Part shown: one piece after another, positions 45,801-59,085 of the stretch
How the letters are laid out: each line of letters starts with the position of its first letter
How positions within the stretch are numbered: position 1 is the stretch's first letter
Assembly: GCF_024494725.1 (NCBI RefSeq)
Contig: NZ_JANHDK010000002.1
Location: 310,001 to 374,000 of the forward strand
Length of the DNA: 64,000 bases
From: Haloplanus ruber
GTDB lineage: Archaea > Halobacteriota > Halobacteria > Halobacteriales > Haloferacaceae
Direction: 5' to 3'
Program-made: the position numbers and the translations under genes
The notes under the pieces: generated by a model
What the model was told of the DNA's origin: nothing
Seen by the model: only the letters and a program-made list of their open reading frames with translations
Database searches by the model: none

Positions 45801-47456
45801 TCAGGCGAACTTCCGGACCGTCAGATCCAGCGTGTCCAGGTCAACGATAGGAGCGAAGCCGGCGTCGGGGTCGATGTTGACGCTCTTCTGGAAGGCCGTC
45901 TGTGCCTGCCAGCACCCGCTGTTGACCGCGAGGACGTTGTGATACTTCCCGTAGCCGAGCTTGTGAACGTGACCGGTGTGGAAGACATCGGGAACGTCCT
46001 CGACCACGAGGTAATCCCGCTCCTCGGGGGCCAGACGCATGTGTCCCCCGTACTTCGGGGCGACGTGGCGTTTCTTCAGCAGGTGGTACATCGCGCGGTG
46101 AGGGTCGTCGTAGCTCGCTTTCGCCTCGGGGAGTTCGGCGATCACCTCGTCCAGTGAGACGCCGTGGTACATCAGGATCGAGACGCCCTCGACGGTCACC
46201 GTCGAAGGGTTCCCGACGATCCGTGCGTCGTGGGCGGTCATGATGTCGCGAAGCTCCTCGTCGAAGGCCGGCTGAGGTTCGGCGAGCCGAACGGCGTCGT
46301 GGTTCCCCGGAATCATCACGATCTCCATGTCGCCGGGAACCGCCTTGAGATGCTCCGAAAACCGCTCGTACTGGTCGTAGATGTCGACGATGTCGAGTTC
46401 CTCGTCCTGATCGGGGTAGACGCCGACCCCCTCGACCATGTCGCCCGCGATCAGCAGGTACTCGACGGCCGCGGCCTCCTCGGTGTGGAGCCAGTCGGCA
46501 AAGCGCTCCCACGCGTCGGCCATGAACTCCTGGCTGCCGACGTGGACGTCGGATATCAGCGCCGCCTGCACGTGGCGGTCGGCCGTGTTCGGCCGATACG
46601 TCCGGGGCACGTCGGGGAAGTAGAGCGCGTCCACGAAGACGATGCCCGCGTCGTCCGAGAGCGTGCCCTCGACGGCGACACACTCGTCGAGGAGAAGTTC
46701 GTCGACCAGGTCGGCGATATCCCGATCCTTCGTGACCAGACAGGGGAAGGTCCCGGTCGTATCTTCGAGTTCGACGATCCAGTGGCCGTTGGCCGACGAG
46801 CGAATGTCGTTCACCAGCCCGATCATCGCCACGTCGCTCCCGCCGGGCATGTCGTCGATAGCCGACGCCGGGCGGTGGTTCACTCGCCCCCTGAGCTGTC
46901 CCGAAAGCTTCTCGTAGCGGTCGCGAAACACGGAGACGAAGTCGCCGTACTCGCCGGTACCGGTGCTCCGGCCGGTGATGTCACCGACGACCGCCGGTGG
47001 TTCGGGCTGGCGAGCCGGGGTTGCCGAGTCCGGAGACCCCTTTGTTTCAGGTGGAGTACCGCTTTTTGTCGTGGAAATATCTGTATTTTTGTTCGGAGTT
47101 GAAGCGGTGGTGTCGTCGGAGGTGGGGGCGGTACGTGCGGAATCGGGGGACGTGGCGTCGGGGGGGGCAGTGTCGGGGGACGTGGCGTCGGGGGGGGCAG
47201 TGTCGGGGGACGTGGCGTCGGGAGTCCCTGTTCCGGCGGCCGCTTCCGGGGACGGCTCGTCGTTGGCGACCGACAGCGCCGAGCGGACGTGGTCGGTCGT
47301 GAGACGGAGTGCGTCGTCGGGAGCCGTCTCGACGGCGGCGTCGACGGCCGTCGCAGGGTCGGCGGCGCCCGCCAGGAGCGTCACCGCTTCGCGTTCGGCG
47401 TTGTAGCCACGGCGGGCGAGTTCCCGGACGATCCGGGCTGGCGTCTCGAGGGGCAC
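45801..47456 (-). CDS. polB: DNA polymerase D small subunit DP1
   Basis: Small subunit of the archaeal replicative polymerase D, with a calcineurin-like 3'-5' exonuclease domain. The protein has 551 residues from GTG 47456 (N-terminus MPLETPARIVRELARRG). An N-terminal helical domain (about 1-75), then a long Asp/Pro/Thr/Ser linker with tandem repeats (about 80-150), then an OB-fold region and the phosphoesterase domain with DVHVG, GDMVEG, PGNHD, YHGVSLDE and HTGHVHKLGY, all expected metal ligands. In haloarchaea this gene is normally close to orc1 and the main origin, as here. Also known as the polymerase II small subunit. Confidence 0.92.
   Translation of the reverse strand: MPLETPARIVRELARRGYNAEREAVTLLAGAADPATAVDAAVETAPDDALRLTTDHVRSALSVANDEPSPEAAAGTGTPDATSPDTAPPDATSPDTAPPDATSPDSARTAPTSDDTTASTPNKNTDISTTKSGTPPETKGSPDSATPARQPEPPAVVGDITGRSTGTGEYGDFVSVFRDRYEKLSGQLRGRVNHRPASAIDDMPGGSDVAMIGLVNDIRSSANGHWIVELEDTTGTFPCLVTKDRDIADLVDELLLDECVAVEGTLSDDAGIVFVDALYFPDVPRTYRPNTADRHVQAALISDVHVGSQEFMADAWERFADWLHTEEAAAVEYLLIAGDMVEGVGVYPDQDEELDIVDIYDQYERFSEHLKAVPGDMEIVMIPGNHDAVRLAEPQPAFDEELRDIMTAHDARIVGNPSTVTVEGVSILMYHGVSLDEVIAELPEAKASYDDPHRAMYHLLKKRHVAPKYGGHMRLAPEERDYLVVEDVPDVFHTGHVHKLGYGKYHNVLAVNSGCWQAQTAFQKSVNIDPDAGFAPIVDLDTLDLTVRKFA
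47036..47056 (-). other. ORB-like element inside the DP1 gene
   Basis: The minus strand reads ctccacctgaaacaaagggg then t, matching 19 of 21 positions of the left ORB of the origin at 50408. It lies in the linker-coding part of DP1, 3.4 kb from the origin. Confidence 0.45.
47143..47220. repeat. 30-bp tandem repeat in the DP1 linker
   Basis: Two perfect 30-base units (47143-47172 and 47173-47202) plus an 18-base partial copy. They encode the PDATSPDTAP repeat in the flexible linker of DP1, so copy number can change without disturbing the folded domains. Confidence 0.9.
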
Positions 47457-47544: not shown

Positions 47545-48417
47545 ATGAGTGCCGACGACGGTCCGCGACCGCCCGACCGGGAGACGGACCACGACTCCGA
47601 GCAGCGTCGGGGTCCCGGAGGGACGCTCGATCGGCTGTCGAGAAACGACGGGCTCCGCCTGGTCGTCCGTGAAACGGCACTGAGCGTCGGTGCCGTCGTC
47701 GCCATCGGGCTGTTACTCTTTGCCCTCAGCGGCGTGTGGCCGCCGATGGTCGCCGTCGAGAGCGGGAGCATGGAGCCGCACATGCACAAGGGCGACCTGG
47801 TGTTTATCACCGACACCGGGCGGTTCACACCCGACGCCGCCCACGAGGGGTCGGGCGTCGTCCCCCGGTCGGCGGGCCGTGAGGTCGGCTACTGGAAGTT
47901 CGGCGCCCACGGCTCGGTGATCGTCTACGACGAACCCGGGGGCGCGGGACCGCCGGTGATCCACCGGGCGCAGTTCTGGGTCGACGAGGGCGAGAACTGG
48001 TACGACCGCGCGAACCCCGACTACGTCGTCGGAGACAACTGCGTCGAGACGCCCAACTGCCCGGCGCCACACGCCGGGTTCGTGACGAAGGGAGACGCCA
48101 ACCGCCGCTACGATCAGGTGAACGGTATCAGTCGGAGTGGACCGGTCAAACCAAGCTGGATCGTCGGGACCGCCCGGGTCAGAATCCCGTATCTCGGCTG
48201 GGTGCGACTCGGCGTCTCCGGGACCGTCCTCGGAACAACGCCGGGAGCAGCGGCGGACCCGACGGCAGTAACGCGGGCACCGACACCAGAAGGCCCGGGC
48301 ACGGGTCAGGCGGCGCGTTCGACGCAGGCGAGCGCACCGACCCCGCCGAAGATCAGGAAGCCGGCACCGACGGTCACGCCGACGAGAGTGGGGAGGAGTT
48401 CGGTGGCGACCCAGTAG
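47545..48417 (+). CDS. sec11: Signal peptidase I, archaeal S26B type
   Basis: Membrane protease removing signal peptides. A cytoplasmic acidic tail (about 1-40) and one membrane helix (about 46-66) are followed by the catalytic Ser75 in ESGSMEPHM and the general base His140 in PVIHRAQFW, the Ser/His arrangement of archaeal enzymes. The domain region ends near 225; the last 65 residues are Pro/Ala/Thr-rich and overlap a convergent small membrane-protein gene by 112 bases, so the true C-terminus may be shorter. It lies next to orc1, as in other haloarchaea. Start ATG 47545. Confidence 0.88.
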   Translation: MSADDGPRPPDRETDHDSEQRRGPGGTLDRLSRNDGLRLVVRETALSVGAVVAIGLLLFALSGVWPPMVAVESGSMEPHMHKGDLVFITDTGRFTPDAAHEGSGVVPRSAGREVGYWKFGAHGSVIVYDEPGGAGPPVIHRAQFWVDEGENWYDRANPDYVVGDNCVETPNCPAPHAGFVTKGDANRRYDQVNGISRSGPVKPSWIVGTARVRIPYLGWVRLGVSGTVLGTTPGAAADPTAVTRAPTPEGPGTGQAARSTQASAPTPPKIRKPAPTVTPTRVGRSSVATQ

Positions 48418-48618: not shown

Positions 48619-50154
48619 TCAGTTGTCGAACCGGGCTTGTACGAACGGCTGGGCGTTCTCGATGTCGCCGAGTCGGGAATCGGAGAGCAACACCGCCTCG
48701 GTCTCCTCGACCGGCACCGAGAGGCTGATCTCCTTTGTCCGCCCGTAACGGCCCTTGCTTACCACGACGGCGTTGACGATGCCGAGCATGTCGAGTTCCG
48801 AGATGAGGTCGGTGACGCGTCGCTGGGTGAGTACGTCGGCGTCGATCTCCTCACAGAGTCGCTTGTAGATGTTGTAGACCTCGCCCGTGTTGATGTTGTG
48901 GACACCATTCTTTTCGAGGAGGATGATCGCAAATAGAACGATCTTCGACTGCGTAGGGAGGGTTCGCACCACCTCGATGACCCGGTCGAGTTCGATCTTG
49001 TCTTGGGCCTGCCGGACGTGTCGCTCCTCGACGGTGTCTGCCTGCCCGCGTTCGGCGAGTTCGCCGGCCGTCCGGAGCAAGTCGAGGGCGCGGCGGGCGT
49101 CGCCGTGTTCCTGGGCCGCGAACGCCGCACAGAGAGGGATGACGTCCTCGGTGAGCGAGTCGTCCACGAAGGCCACATCGGCACGGTGTTGGAGGATGTC
49201 CCGCAACTGGTTGGCGTCGTAGGGCGGGAAGACGATTTCCTCCTCCCCGAGGCTCGACTTGACGCGGGGATCGAGAAAGTCGGTGAACTTCAGGTCGTTC
49301 GAGATGCCCATAATCGAGATGCGGGAGTTGTCGAGTTCGGAGTTCATCCGCGAGAGGTTATAGAGCGTGTCATCGCCCGACTTCTCGACGAGCTTGTCGA
49401 TTTCGTCGAGCATGATGACGACGACGCGCTCGTGGTAGTCGACCGCCTCGAAGAAGGAACTGTATACGCGATCCGTCGGCCAGCCCGTCATCGGGACGGA
49501 CGCCATCCCCTCGCGGTCCGCTTCGAGCGCCTCGATCCGCTCGTCGATCCCGTCGACGGAGTCGAAACGAGTGTCCCCGAGCGTGCCGTCGCCGTCGACG
49601 ACCGCCGACCGCAGCGCCGCGAGGTCGTCGAGTCGTCCGTCGATGACGTCCCGATTTTTCTCGATGAACTTGTTGGCGAGCTGTGCCAGCACGCGATACT
49701 GCGTGTCGGTCACCTCGCAGTTGATATACTCGACCTCGCAGGGAACGTCGTATTTCTGGGAGGTCGACTCGAGTTCCTTGCTGACGAACTTCGCGCTCGC
49801 GGTCTTACCCGTCCCGGTCTTTCCGTAGATGAGGATGTTCGAGGGCGTGTCCCCGCGCAGCGCCGAGACGAGGATGGTCGCCATCTGGTTGATCTGCTCG
49901 TTCCGGTGCGGGAGTTCGTGTGGCGTGTACGACGGGCGGAGCACCTCCTTGTTCTCGAAGATCGGCTCCCCGGAGAGGAGGTCGTCGAACAATCCCTGGT
50001 TTTCGTCTGCGTCCTCGCCCTCGTCGTCGAGAACGTCGTCGATGTCGACATCGCCGGAGATGTCGGTCGCCCGGTCGCGGGCGGGCGCATCTAGGTCACG
50101 CTCTTCGGCGTCGATATCGGGGCGCTCGTCGGAAGGTGAGTCGTTCGCGTCCAT
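48619..50154 (-). CDS. orc1: Orc1/Cdc6 replication initiator
   Basis: AAA+ initiator protein that binds ORB elements at the adjacent origin and loads the MCM helicase. The 511-residue protein has an acidic N-terminal tail (about 1-65), Walker A GKTGTGKTA, Walker B VVIMLDEID, sensor 1 in GISNDLKF, the sensor 2 Arg in HGDARRALDLL, and a C-terminal winged helix (about 420-500). ATG 50154 is chosen because upstream codons encode a basic, hydrophobic run. Its start faces the origin region. The long acidic tail and direct adjacency to DP1, sec11 and the oap genes mark it as the main Orc1 of haloarchaea. Confidence 0.95.
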   Translation of the reverse strand: MDANDSPSDERPDIDAEERDLDAPARDRATDISGDVDIDDVLDDEGEDADENQGLFDDLLSGEPIFENKEVLRPSYTPHELPHRNEQINQMATILVSALRGDTPSNILIYGKTGTGKTASAKFVSKELESTSQKYDVPCEVEYINCEVTDTQYRVLAQLANKFIEKNRDVIDGRLDDLAALRSAVVDGDGTLGDTRFDSVDGIDERIEALEADREGMASVPMTGWPTDRVYSSFFEAVDYHERVVVIMLDEIDKLVEKSGDDTLYNLSRMNSELDNSRISIMGISNDLKFTDFLDPRVKSSLGEEEIVFPPYDANQLRDILQHRADVAFVDDSLTEDVIPLCAAFAAQEHGDARRALDLLRTAGELAERGQADTVEERHVRQAQDKIELDRVIEVVRTLPTQSKIVLFAIILLEKNGVHNINTGEVYNIYKRLCEEIDADVLTQRRVTDLISELDMLGIVNAVVVSKGRYGRTKEISLSVPVEETEAVLLSDSRLGDIENAQPFVQARFDN

Positions 50155-50163
50155 TCGGTGTAA

Positions 50164-50184
50164 CCCCGCCGTTTCCACTGGAAG
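50164..50184 (-). other. ORB-like element at the orc1 start
   Basis: The minus strand reads cttccagtggaaacggcggg then g. It contains the TTCCAGTGGAAAC core, with 15 of 21 positions like the left ORB, and lies 10 bases upstream of the orc1 ATG, suggesting autoregulation by Orc1. Confidence 0.5.
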
Positions 50185-50407
50185 ACGCGCCGAGACGGGA
50201 GTGATTCCGCTTCCTGTGTCCTCCCGGCGCGTCCAAATGATCCAGAGGAAATAGAGGAACAGACGGTAGAAAAACCTTCCCCCTGAGCGCTCCAAACAGT
50301 CACGACGACACAAACGCCCGTTCACGGATCGCTACGGGTGGTTTAGGCGGTTCTTGTCTGTGTCGACACGCCAGTCAGGTGAACACGAACCGGCTGGTTC
50401 GCCGGCG

Positions 50408-50435
50408 CCCCCCACCCCTTCGTTTCAGGTGGAAC
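50408..50435 (-). other. Left origin recognition box (ORB)
   Basis: The minus strand reads gttccacctgaaacgaaggg followed by gtgggggg. The TTCCA..GAAAC..AAGGGG core with a G-run is the haloarchaeal ORB pattern. Inverted with respect to the right copy at 50632. Confidence 0.85.
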
Positions 50436-50631
50436 GTGCAGAGAGGGGGTGGGGGGTGAGAGTCGGGTCTAGATCAAAGAGCAAGCTATAATAACAAAGA
50501 CAAGAAACGGTACCCGTATTGCAATAGCACACCTGTTTTCAACGGGGAGTTGTGTGGATTCTAGGGATCGCCCCCGCTTCGTGTCACTGCTCCGTCACCG
50601 CCGAGGCTGCGTGGGTCGCGGGGTGGACCGT

Positions 50632-50659
50632 CTCCACCCGAAACGAAGGGGTGGGGGGG
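50632..50659 (+). other. Right origin recognition box (ORB)
   Basis: Plus strand ctccacccgaaacgaagggg then tgggggg, matching 25 of 27 positions of the left ORB in inverted orientation. The two copies bracket the AT-rich unwinding stretch. Confidence 0.85.
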
Positions 50660-50799
50660 AAGCCCAGCTCCCGTCCCAGTCTCGTGTGGGTGGGCGACGG
50701 CCTGCCGGTCCGTCGCATCGGCGAACGGCCTCTCTCCGTCCGCGTTCGGCCGTCGTACGCCGCCCGCTACTGACAGGTCGGTTATGGTTGTCTGACGCA

Positions 50800-50809
50800 C
50801 ACTTAAGTG
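50800..50809. promoter_or_regulatory. CACTTAAGTG palindrome upstream of oapA
   Basis: Perfect ten-base palindrome, 67 bases before the oapA ATG. It contains a TTAA core that could act as TATA box or as a binding site; the longer distance argues for a short 5' leader. Confidence 0.35.
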
Positions 50810-50875
50810 AACGCGGCGACCTTCATCCCGCATACGCCCTCTCGCGGCGGTAGACGGGAGGTGCGGGAGGATAGG

Positions 50876-51517
50876 ATGGGACTGCTCACAGGACTCAGAG
50901 ACAGCATATCACGCGTTACGGAACGACTGTTCTCGGCGAGTGATCCCAAGCGCATCGGGATCTACGGCCCGCCCAACGCCGGGAAGACAACGCTCGCGAA
51001 CCGGATCGCACGCGACTGGACGGGGGACGCCGTCGGCCCGGAGAGCCACGTCCCTCACGAAACCCGGCGGGCACGCCGGAAAGAGAACGTCGAAATCGAA
51101 CGGAACGGCAGCACCGTCACCATCGACATCGTCGACACCCCTGGTGTCACGACGAAGGTCGACTACAAGGAGTTTCTCGAACACGACATCGACGAGGAGG
51201 ACGCGGTCCGTCGCTCCCGCGAGGCGACCGAGGGGGTCGCGGAGGCGATGCACTGGCTCCGCGAGGACGTCGACGGCGTTATCTACGTCCTCGATAGCAC
51301 CGAGGACCCGTTCACGCAGGTAAATACGATGCTCATCGGGATCATCGAGAGTCAGGATCTCCCGGTGCTCATCCTCGCGAACAAGACGGACCTCGAGGGA
51401 TCGAACATCAAGCAGATCGAGAACGCCTTCCCGCAGCACCAGACAATCCCACTTTCGGCGCTGGAAGGCGACAACATGGACGAAGTGTACGACATGATCG
51501 CGGAGTACTTCGGGTGA
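50876..51517 (+). CDS. oapA: Origin-associated GTPase OapA (Era-like)
   Basis: Small GTP-binding protein of 213 residues. G1 is GPPNAGKT, G3 DTPG, G4 NKTD and G5 SAL, all intact. The first 25 residues form an amphipathic helix. It is the first of three genes (oapA-oapB-oapC) that always lie next to the main origin in haloarchaea; published gene-deletion work in Haloferax supports a link to replication or origin function, but the molecular role is unknown. The ATG at 50876 has no strong upstream TATA except the palindrome region. Confidence 0.88.
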   Translation: MGLLTGLRDSISRVTERLFSASDPKRIGIYGPPNAGKTTLANRIARDWTGDAVGPESHVPHETRRARRKENVEIERNGSTVTIDIVDTPGVTTKVDYKEFLEHDIDEEDAVRRSREATEGVAEAMHWLREDVDGVIYVLDSTEDPFTQVNTMLIGIIESQDLPVLILANKTDLEGSNIKQIENAFPQHQTIPLSALEGDNMDEVYDMIAEYFG

Positions 51518-51523
51518 CGGACC

Positions 51524-51910
51524 ATGCCTGAAGCAACTCCACCCGACGTCGACGGCGTCCAGATCGACCTCATCAGCGGCGCGCGAATGGAGAATCTCAC
51601 GGGGATGGAGAAGATTCGGCTCATCCTCGACGGCGTCCGCGAGGGCAACATCGTCATCCTCGAGGAAGGCCTCTCCCCCGACGAGGAGTCGAAACTCATC
51701 GAGGTGACGATGACCGAGATCAGCCCCGACGAGTTCAACGGGATCGAAATCGAGACTTACCCCCGCTCCGAGACTGCGGATCGGAGCTTCCTCGACCGTC
51801 TGATGGGGCGCGAGTCGACGAAGAAACTCACCGTCATCGGACCGGCGAACCAGATCCAGACGCTCCACAAGGACGAGAACCTCATCAGTGCGCTCGTCTC
51901 ACGTAAGTAA
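51524..51910 (+). CDS. oapB: Origin-associated protein OapB (DUF2073)
   Basis: A 128-residue protein of the DUF2073 family. It opens DGVQIDLISGARMENLTGMEKI and has the conserved VREGNIVILEEGLSPDEESKLIEVTM segment. Some archaeal relatives outside halophiles are reported as RNA-binding subunits, so nucleic-acid binding is plausible. It starts 6 bases after oapA and overlaps the start of oapC by one base, forming an operon. Confidence 0.85.
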   Translation: MPEATPPDVDGVQIDLISGARMENLTGMEKIRLILDGVREGNIVILEEGLSPDEESKLIEVTMTEISPDEFNGIEIETYPRSETADRSFLDRLMGRESTKKLTVIGPANQIQTLHKDENLISALVSRK

Positions 51911-52572
51911 TGCCCCACCAGTGTACGAACTGTGAACGGGTGTTCGCGGACGGATCCAAGGAGATGCTCTCCGGCTGTCCCGACTGCGGCGGGAACAAGT
52001 TCCAGTTCAAACCCGACTCGGCGACCGAGACGCCGACGCTCGGCGACGACTCGGGAGGTGGCGACGACGCCGAAACGACACCCGACCCGTCCGCCGACGC
52101 GACGTCGTCCCCGACGAGGGAATCGACACCCCGGACGCCCTCCGCCGACGCGGCGGCCGCAGGCGACCCCGACCCCACGCCAACTCCGGAGCCGTCCACC
52201 GCGGCGGACGCCACCCCCGGCGACGACGTCATCGAGGCCGAGTCCGACCCGAGCGTCCTCACCGAGGACACCGCCCAGGCGGACGCTCGGAGCGACGTGG
52301 TTTCGGCCGACGAACTCGACGACGCCGCCTCCCCCCCACCGTCGGCCGACGACGCCGCCCGCGCCGTCCCGCCGACCTCCGACGAGTCGCCGGGCATCGA
52401 TGATCTCCGGGCGGAGCTCAACGACCAGTTCGAGAGCATCAAGATCCTCGAACCCGGACAGTACGAACTCAATCTGATGGAACTGTACGACCGCCAGGAG
52501 TGTATCATCTCCCTCCAAGAGGACGGCCACTACGTCATCGAGGTGGCCGACACCTGGCGCGACGACGCGTGA
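51910..52572 (+). CDS. oapC: Origin-associated zinc-ribbon protein OapC
   Basis: A 220-residue protein with an N-terminal zinc ribbon (CTNC at 5-8 and CPDC at 23-26), a long Asp/Pro/Thr/Ala-rich disordered middle (about 40-165), and a folded C-terminal helix-strand segment (about 170-220; SIKILEPGQYELNLMELYDR in outline). This design matches OapC of haloarchaea. Its role is unknown; the zinc ribbon suggests binding DNA, RNA or protein at the origin. Start ATG overlaps the oapB stop. Confidence 0.82.
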   Translation: MPHQCTNCERVFADGSKEMLSGCPDCGGNKFQFKPDSATETPTLGDDSGGGDDAETTPDPSADATSSPTRESTPRTPSADAAAAGDPDPTPTPEPSTAADATPGDDVIEAESDPSVLTEDTAQADARSDVVSADELDDAASPPPSADDAARAVPPTSDESPGIDDLRAELNDQFESIKILEPGQYELNLMELYDRQECIISLQEDGHYVIEVADTWRDDA

Positions 52573-52677: not shown

Positions 52678-52698
52678 ACCCCTTCGTTTCACTTGCAG
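52678..52698 (-). other. ORB-like element downstream of oapC
   Basis: The minus strand reads ctgcaagtgaaacgaagggg then t, 17 of 21 positions like the right ORB. Together with the direct repeats just before it, it forms a second ORB-like cluster 2 kb from the origin. Confidence 0.5.
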
Positions 52699-58141: not shown

Positions 58142-58747
58142 ATGGACGGCACGACACTCGTCGAGACGCTGACCGACGACTTGGAGACGGAGCTTTCGCG
58201 GCTCGGATCCTCGAAGTGGCTGTACGCACTGACGGACGGAGAGATGACCGGCTCGGCGGTTCGCACCGCGGCGGCGGCGGACGCGGCGGCGGCGGCCGAG
58301 TGCTTCGAGGCGTGGGCGGCCGACGCCGACGGCGGGACCCCGGACGTCTTCACAGCCCTCGCGGACACGGCCACCGACCGGGCCGAAACCGCCGACGCCG
58401 ACCCTACCGACCGCCGGACCTACGAAACTCTCGGGGACTTCGAGGATTCCGTCGCCCGCCTCGGCGGTGCCCTCGGGCACTCGCTCGTCCTCGACCGGAC
58501 CGTCGGACAGATGGTCGGCTTCTTCGTCGGCGACGCAGACCCCTCGACGGCTGGCACCTTTCGTGACCTCCGGGACGACGCCGATGCCGACCGCGACCGG
58601 ATCGTCGCGGCTCTCGACGACCGCTGTGACTCGGAGGACGACTGGGACCACGCCGCCGACGCCGCGACGGCCGTCGTCGAGGCGACCTACGACGACTACG
58701 TCGAAACGCTGGAGTCGATGGGCGTCAAGCCGAAAAACGTCTGCTGA
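58142..58747 (+). CDS. Acidic helical conserved protein of unknown function
   Basis: A 201-residue, strongly acidic, mostly helical protein with no membrane segment. It has several conserved-looking aromatic/His segments (SSKWLYALTDGEMTG, LGDFEDSVARLGGALGHSLVLDR, VGFFVGDADPSTAGTFR in outline), which could form a helical bundle such as a rubrerythrin- or haem-oxygenase-like fold, but no metal motif is certain. Ends VKPKNVC. The ATG at 58142 follows a promoter-like gatgcatacaaacc at 58107-58120. I do not recognise the function. Confidence 0.75.
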   Translation: MDGTTLVETLTDDLETELSRLGSSKWLYALTDGEMTGSAVRTAAAADAAAAAECFEAWAADADGGTPDVFTALADTATDRAETADADPTDRRTYETLGDFEDSVARLGGALGHSLVLDRTVGQMVGFFVGDADPSTAGTFRDLRDDADADRDRIVAALDDRCDSEDDWDHAADAATAVVEATYDDYVETLESMGVKPKNVC

Positions 58748-58777
58748 GCCGACGCAGCGTCTCGATTTCTGGAGTAA

Positions 58778-58800
58778 TCTCCACCCGAAGCGAAGGGGTT
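58778..58800 (+). other. Ectopic ORB-like element
   Basis: Plus strand tctccacccgaagcgaaggg then gtt: 21 of 22 positions are identical to the right ORB at 50632. It lies between two convergent genes, 8 kb from the origin, and lacks the long G-run. The match is too long to be chance in my judgement. Confidence 0.6.
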
Positions 58801-58821
58801 CGGGACACACTCACACCCCGG

Positions 58822-59085
58822 CTACACGCCGTCGAGTGTCTCGCGGTAAGCGGTGATCGCATCCATCGCCGCCTCGATCCGTGCCCCCACGTCCTCGCCC
58901 GTCGCGGCGTTGACCTCTCGCAGCGTGTTCTCGTGTCGGGCGAGGCGGCCGTGGTCGGTTCCACGCTCTGCCAGTTCCGCGAACGCCTCGGCCTGGTCCG
59001 CGAGACGCTCGCGTTCCTCGCCGTTGGCCGCCTCGGCCGCGGCCTCCAGTTCCTCGCTCGCCCGTTCGAGTTGTTCGTGGGCCAT
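58822..59085 (-). CDS. Small coiled-coil protein (DUF7553-like)
   Basis: An 87-residue, highly charged helical protein (MAHEQLERASEELEAAAEAAN in outline, heptads rich in Leu, Ala and Glu). No signal or membrane segment. Such proteins recur in haloarchaea and probably act as dimeric coiled coils; function unknown. ATG 59085 is the only reasonable start. Confidence 0.7.
   Translation of the reverse strand: MAHEQLERASEELEAAAEAANGEERERLADQAEAFAELAERGTDHGRLARHENTLREVNAATGEDVGARIEAAMDAITAYRETLDGV

Follow-up and report, generated by a model that had tools for sequence, protein, structure and literature searches.

Haloarchaeal oriC1 and its G-strings are already well described (PMC3528665, PMC3936714, PMC4010727), and for oriC1 of Haloarcula hispanica both ORBs and both G-strings are reported to be required (PMC3936714). 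In the same species an internal G-rich inverted repeat was described as an enhancer (PMC3936714). At oriC2 of H. hispanica an ORB-rich titration region has been proposed, with genetic support (PMC3936714). Published origin predictions, as far as the accessible text of these reports describes them, were confined to the intergenic DNA next to cdc6 genes (PMC3528665, PMC4595724), so that boxes inside the DP1 gene would have been missed. The datA locus of E. coli and, in the same species, the DnaA boxes of the dnaA promoter are initiator sites for titration and autoregulation. What limits initiation at a conserved archaeal origin is, to our knowledge, largely unknown, and the satellite boxes described below bear on this question. 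These conserved boxes, above all a pair inside DP1, appear to be previously undescribed. The accessible portions of the literature searched make no mention of ORBs in DP1, and an earlier mention of the box at the orc1 start in Norais 2007 or Coker 2009 is possible.

The orc1-oapA intergenic region has the features of oriC1

We analysed a 64,000-nucleotide stretch of the Haloplanus ruber genome (the window), which is part of a 473-kb contig (C2), one of nine contigs of a 3.28-Mb genome that contains further orc paralogues. The initial annotation had taken the region 50155-50875 to be the main chromosomal replication origin, lying between divergent orc1 and oapA genes. This region (721 bp) is exactly the interval between the start codon of orc1/cdc6A, which ends at 50154, and the ATG of oapA, which starts at 50876, and the families of both flanking genes were confirmed by Pfam (Table 1). 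The initiator is of the Orc1/Cdc6A type, with a strong match (E ≤ 1e-150) in 55 of 60 relatives, and the region shows the synteny with oapA, oapB, oapC and DP1 (Pfam) that is found at haloarchaeal oriC1.

The inverted long ORBs with G-runs around an AT-rich stretch, which had been read from the letters, were both recovered. The left ORB, CCCCCCACCCCTTCGTTTCAGGTGGA, is repeated on the right as its reverse complement; the two 26-bp elements are identical at 25 of 26 positions (96% complementary, one base different) and are spaced by 199 nt. Both carry a G-string (CCCCCC/GGGGGG) at the outer end, a halophile-specific feature of oriC1. The 80-mer that starts at 50463, in the interior, has 40% GC compared to 66.8% in the window, where only 0.3% of the 80-mers are that low. 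Just inside the left ORB lies the left arm of an internal G-rich repeat, and its right partner is shrunk to CCCCC at 50571-50575. An internal G-rich inverted repeat is an optional element of oriC1 and is absent from some species. Both ORBs, with at least 20 of 26 matches, recur in 82 of the 90 haloarchaeal loci compared, which comprise the window and 89 relatives. When the 721-bp region was compared with the whole genome, the matches consisted only of the region itself and its own inverted arms.

The locus is like oriC1-cdc6A of H. hispanica in its orc1/cdc6A neighbour, the inverted ORBs, the extended G-string, the AT-rich interior, one arm of the internal G-rich repeat, the oap genes on the opposite side and the nearby DP1 gene. 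It differs in the right half of the enhancer repeat and is otherwise typical. We take orc1/HVO_0001 of Haloferax volcanii and orc7 of Halobacterium to be orthologues of the same system. Judged by its sequence, 50155-50875 is oriC1, a textbook origin of an already known kind and an ordinary member of that family. By analogy with the oriC1 homologues that have been studied, Orc1 from the adjacent gene would bind both inverted ORBs, touching the G-strings, and would then open the AT-rich stretch between them and load MCM, leading to bidirectional replication.

Table 1. Features of the oriC1 locus and its surroundings (window coordinates; PWM, score with the ORB weight matrix)
Feature	Position	Strand	Evidence or remarks
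DP1, PolD small subunit	45801..47402	-	DNA_pol_E_B and Metallophos; 5' end not certain, open frame extends to 47828
DP1-embedded ORB without G-string (box A)	47036..47055	+	PWM 35.8; among the four genomic matches to the strict pattern
Decayed partner (box B)	47094..47113	-	58 bp from box A; in 58/102 DP1 genes box B is intact at this site
orc1/cdc6A initiator gene	48619..50154	-	AAA+, Cdc6 lid (Cdc6_lid), Cdc6_C (Pfam)
oriC1 intergenic region (orc1-oapA)	50155..50875	.	exact interval; skew maximum at right edge; conserved in 82/90 loci
Solitary ORB without G-string, putative autoregulatory box	50163..50182	+	PWM 17.8; 8 bp upstream of orc1 ATG
Left ORB with G-string	50408..50433	+	CCCCCC 50408-50413, core 50414-50433; PWM 36.8
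Internal G-rich repeat, just inside left ORB	50443..50456	+	resembles element III of Wu et al. (PMC3936714)
AT-rich stretch, presumed duplex unwinding element	50463..50542	.	40% GC
Right ORB with G-string, inverted	50633..50658	-	PWM 36.8
oapA, GTPase-like origin-associated protein	50876..51517	+	MMR_HSR1 (Pfam); synteny
oapB	51524..51910	+	PF09846 OapB, 5e-43
oapC	51910..52572	+	PF09845 OapC, 2.5e-29
ORB-like box downstream of oapC	52678..52697	+	PWM 17.8; same orientation and same place in most genus members
ORB variant ACCCCTTCGCTTCGGGTGGA	58780..58799	-	PWM 27.5; gap between convergent genes 58142-58747 (+) and ~58812-59054 (-)

GC skew and gene orientation around the origin

The cumulative GC-skew analysis that had been proposed as a check was run on the 473-kb contig and gave a single maximum at C2:~360880, corresponding to window position ~50880. 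This turning point lies no more than about 5 bp from the right edge of 50155-50875. The cumulative skew climbs over the 360 kb to its left and drops over the remaining 112 kb to its right, and the observed skew range was reached in none of 5000 block permutations. Fourfold-degenerate sites and intergenic DNA show the skew as well, so that it is not only an effect of gene orientation. The skew of C2 at the origin is a maximum and not a minimum, the leading strands being C-rich; in bacteria the sign of the cumulative skew at the origin is usually the opposite (a minimum). In Haloquadratum walsbyi, origins were reported close to high points of the cumulative skew (PMC3119063).

The orientation of genes along the leading strands, which had been put forward as a further sign of an origin, holds for the immediate neighbours: DP1 and orc1 (minus strand) and oapA, oapB and oapC (plus strand) all point away from the origin. 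DP1 and orc1 are separated by a plus-strand ORF at 47545-48417. Over the whole contig no strand bias of genes was found (136 plus and 159 minus on the left, 39 plus and 54 minus on the right, p = 0.55), which at that scale rules out leading-strand gene bias as support for the origin.

The initiator, oapABC, the inverted ORBs with their G-strings, the AT-rich interior, the skew and the conservation in 82 of 90 loci all support reading this region as the main chromosomal origin. The designation "main" is supported by homology with oriC1 of H. hispanica and H. volcanii and by the skew peak. It is highly improbable that the region is oriC1-like but inactive and that the genome uses another origin on C1 or C4. 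Other orc paralogues do exist in the genome, and dormant origins are known in haloarchaea (PMC4595724), but the skew over both sides of the contig converges on 50155-50875 and the features that are essential in other oriC1 are intact here. Two further sites were observed in this context. On contig C1, one of the orc paralogues has an ORB-like core with a single mismatch at a distance of 3 kb (G000:C1:968403-971515; L006/L046), possibly a second origin. In another genome (G057), an inverted ORB pair with C-runs is found ~159 kb from orc1 (L267, C1:1885603-1885960; L146), where a rearrangement seems to have parted the initiator gene and the origin.

ORBs outside the origin are concentrated around orc1

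A genome-wide search with a strict ORB pattern, ACCCCNNNGTTTCNNNTGGA, identified four sites in the 3.28-Mb genome, all within one 3.6-kb stretch. These are the two origin ORBs, a box 8 bp ahead of the ATG of orc1, and a fourth site that lies 3.1 kb away inside the DP1 coding sequence. The initial annotation had overlooked the boxes beyond the two main ORBs. The backward pattern, used as a control, gave no match in any of 60 genomes. A 20-position weight matrix was then derived from 164 sites, the origin ORBs in 82 loci, and used to scan 20 kb around each origin, which revealed two extra positions that are occupied class-wide, at the orc1 start and inside DP1. A chance origin of the boxes is ruled out by the backward control and by the low background at scores of at least 14 (0.9% per equal stretch and strand for the DP1 box).

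The box at the orc1 start is present in 75 of 90 loci, always in the same orientation and never reversed. Its distance to the in-frame start that follows it is 1-29 bp, and 7-13 bp in about two thirds of the cases. This position suggests that the box may serve autoregulation of orc1.

Outside the intergenic region and DP1, at most 81 strict sites were counted in 52 genomes, 60 of them no more than 100 kb from orc1; the 81 is an upper figure, because a few of these sites belong to origin pairs with a longer or rearranged intergenic region. On near-complete chromosomes, 25 of 29 solitary boxes lie within 250 kb of orc1 (tallied by hand; p = 3e-16, and as the counted loci are related, the p-values given here overstate their independence). 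Solitary strict sites are mostly intergenic, and a bias in the orientation of solitary boxes towards the origin was not significant (p = 0.07). One further box, whose copy in the window is the variant between convergent genes in Table 1, is conserved across genera: a box is found no more than 450 bp from the 3' end of the same gene in 18 of 30 orthologous loci, and these 18 include 11 of the 12 loci that belong to the genus of the window.

The boxes inside DP1 are conserved as DNA

Box A of DP1 has a score as good as that of the origin ORBs. Among 102 haloarchaeal DP1 genes, a box with a score of at least 14 was found in 83, in the linker that precedes the conserved domain, and the inverted two-box arrangement in 49. 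Of 54 scored pairs, 42 have their boxes at an offset of 58 bp; the other offsets are 55, 70, 73 and 76 bp, all in the same codon phase. The inverted pair is taken to be the ancestral state, from which the second box has decayed in H. ruber. Most of the haloarchaeal genera sampled carry DP1 boxes. A recognisable box is absent from about a fifth of the haloarchaeal DP1 genes, including one that is inverted 6.5 kb from orc1 (G013), and no box was seen in the DP1 linker of two non-haloarchaeal loci with DP1 near orc1 (L189, Methanosarcinales; L190, archaeon SCG-AAA382B04). Next to the embedded ORB of H. ruber, at 47130-47260, the linker has short tandem repeats in which DATSPDTAPP occurs about three times.

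For a codon test, sites were picked by peptide pattern alone and their codons were compared with those in the rest of the same genes. The rare codons CCA for proline (54/55 sites, 8% background), GTT for valine (30/30, 8%) and ACT for threonine (26/26, 8%) were used almost without exception, and the same was observed for glycine GGA (26/26, 10%), glycine GGG (58/58, 23%) and glutamate GAA (58/58, 28%). The residue at the variable position of the ORB itself changes freely between K, E, G and R. Near-invariant use of rare synonymous codons wherever they keep the box intact, combined with free variation at this one residue, demonstrates that selection on the DP1 boxes acts at the DNA level.

A constraint on the linker peptides PVETKGS and DPSVSTG, which do recur, or an mRNA hairpin between the inverted boxes, which are complementary at conserved positions (93%), has next to no chance of explaining these boxes. 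The codon test rules out a protein-level cause, since neither the rare synonymous codons nor the K/E/G/R variation fits a purely protein origin. The hairpin is unsupported because boxes A and B, which would form its two arms, show no covariation at their variable positions (0.575 compared to 0.554 when shuffled, 312/2000), and a single box often survives alone. Linkage to oriC1 alone was likewise ruled out as the reason why the boxes are kept: of ten genomes in which DP1 lies at least 8.7 kb from orc1, nine retain them (8.7 to ~94 kb), and they are lost at ~222 kb.

A role of the DP1 pair as a mini-origin, whether dormant or accessory, or as a site for loading MCM is very unlikely. The convergent arrangement of the ORBs is that of oriC1, and the gap between the boxes is lower in GC than its flanks (61.7 compared to 69.4%; lower in 61 of 80 loci). 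However, the gap is only 38 bp and contains no strongly AT-rich element, the G-strings that are essential in H. hispanica oriC1 (PMC3936714) are lacking, and the cumulative GC skew has no second inflection on the contig.

Possible roles of the satellite boxes

The satellite boxes are real and are selected as DNA. We infer that Orc1 is their ligand, the obvious one because the satellites share their sequence with the origin ORBs, and we consider it probable that 50155-50875 is oriC1 and that the same Orc1 recognises the satellite ORBs as well. As these boxes are without the G-string, which is reported to be essential for firing, they should bind but not fire. Of the roles considered, the likeliest, and the simplest that would cover all the boxes, is the control of free Orc1, by autorepression from the start box and by metering near the origin, a proposal that we put at not quite an even chance. 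Orc1 bound to the box at the orc1 start would repress its own gene, and the origin-proximal boxes would bind Orc1 without initiating. These boxes would be doubled soon after initiation, upon which free Orc1 would fall and re-initiation would be damped, in a similar way as with datA or oriC2D. With the same reservation, the dispersed, origin-centred set of Orc1 boxes in haloarchaea, with the orc1-start box and the DP1 pair as its core, might serve oriC1 as a system that meters the initiator or organises the origin domain.

As at datA and oriC2D, initiator-box sites that are conserved as DNA are present outside the firing origin; a dense box cluster as in those systems was not found at the satellite sites, which have one or two boxes each. 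The 11 ORBs of oriC2D, downstream of cdc6E and proposed to titrate Cdc6E, are also away from the firing origin and near an initiator gene, whereas the boxes described here are single or paired, dispersed, predicted to serve Orc1/Cdc6A, and in one case embedded in coding sequence, that of a subunit of a replicative polymerase. The resemblance to datA and to the DnaA boxes of the dnaA promoter lies in the use of initiator sites for titration and autoregulation, a function that is only inferred here, and initiator and motif are unrelated.

Two observations speak against metering. Four boxes seem few for titrating an initiator that may be abundant, and the pair in DP1 goes with its gene and not with a fixed distance from oriC1, so that regulation of DP1 fits as well as titration. 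The main rival to metering is that the DP1 boxes are an intragenic operator, at which bound Orc1 would block transcription of DP1 or an internal promoter and so couple the initiator to the polymerase supply; we regard this as rather unlikely. Relocation of DP1 up to ~94 kb from orc1 leaves the boxes in the gene, but inversions around the origin would preserve a titration site too. The orc1-start box sits where an operator is expected, and a paralogue of Orc1 in Sulfolobus, Orc1-2, is reported to be a transcription regulator (PMC9738581); the DP1 pair, on the other hand, lies well inside the gene and not at its start. Control of a promoter is also unlikely for the conserved box between convergent 3' ends, which argues against a purely transcriptional role. 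Whether Orc1 metering or the operator applies, initiator boxes in silent codons of a polymerase gene make initiator-polymerase coupling or titration at oriC1 directly testable in tractable haloarchaea.

The two convergent genes around the box at 58780 (58142-59054) have no Pfam match; one of the products ends with GVKPKNVC and the other starts with MAHEQLERASEELEAAAE, and the pair recurs near oriC1 in other genera. Finally, two methanogen loci (L191 and L192; Methanosarcinales, Methanothrix) have ORBs of the same orientation whose distances to orc1, of roughly 2.1-2.2 and 3.2-3.4 kb, match between the two, which suggests that satellite boxes may extend beyond the haloarchaea.
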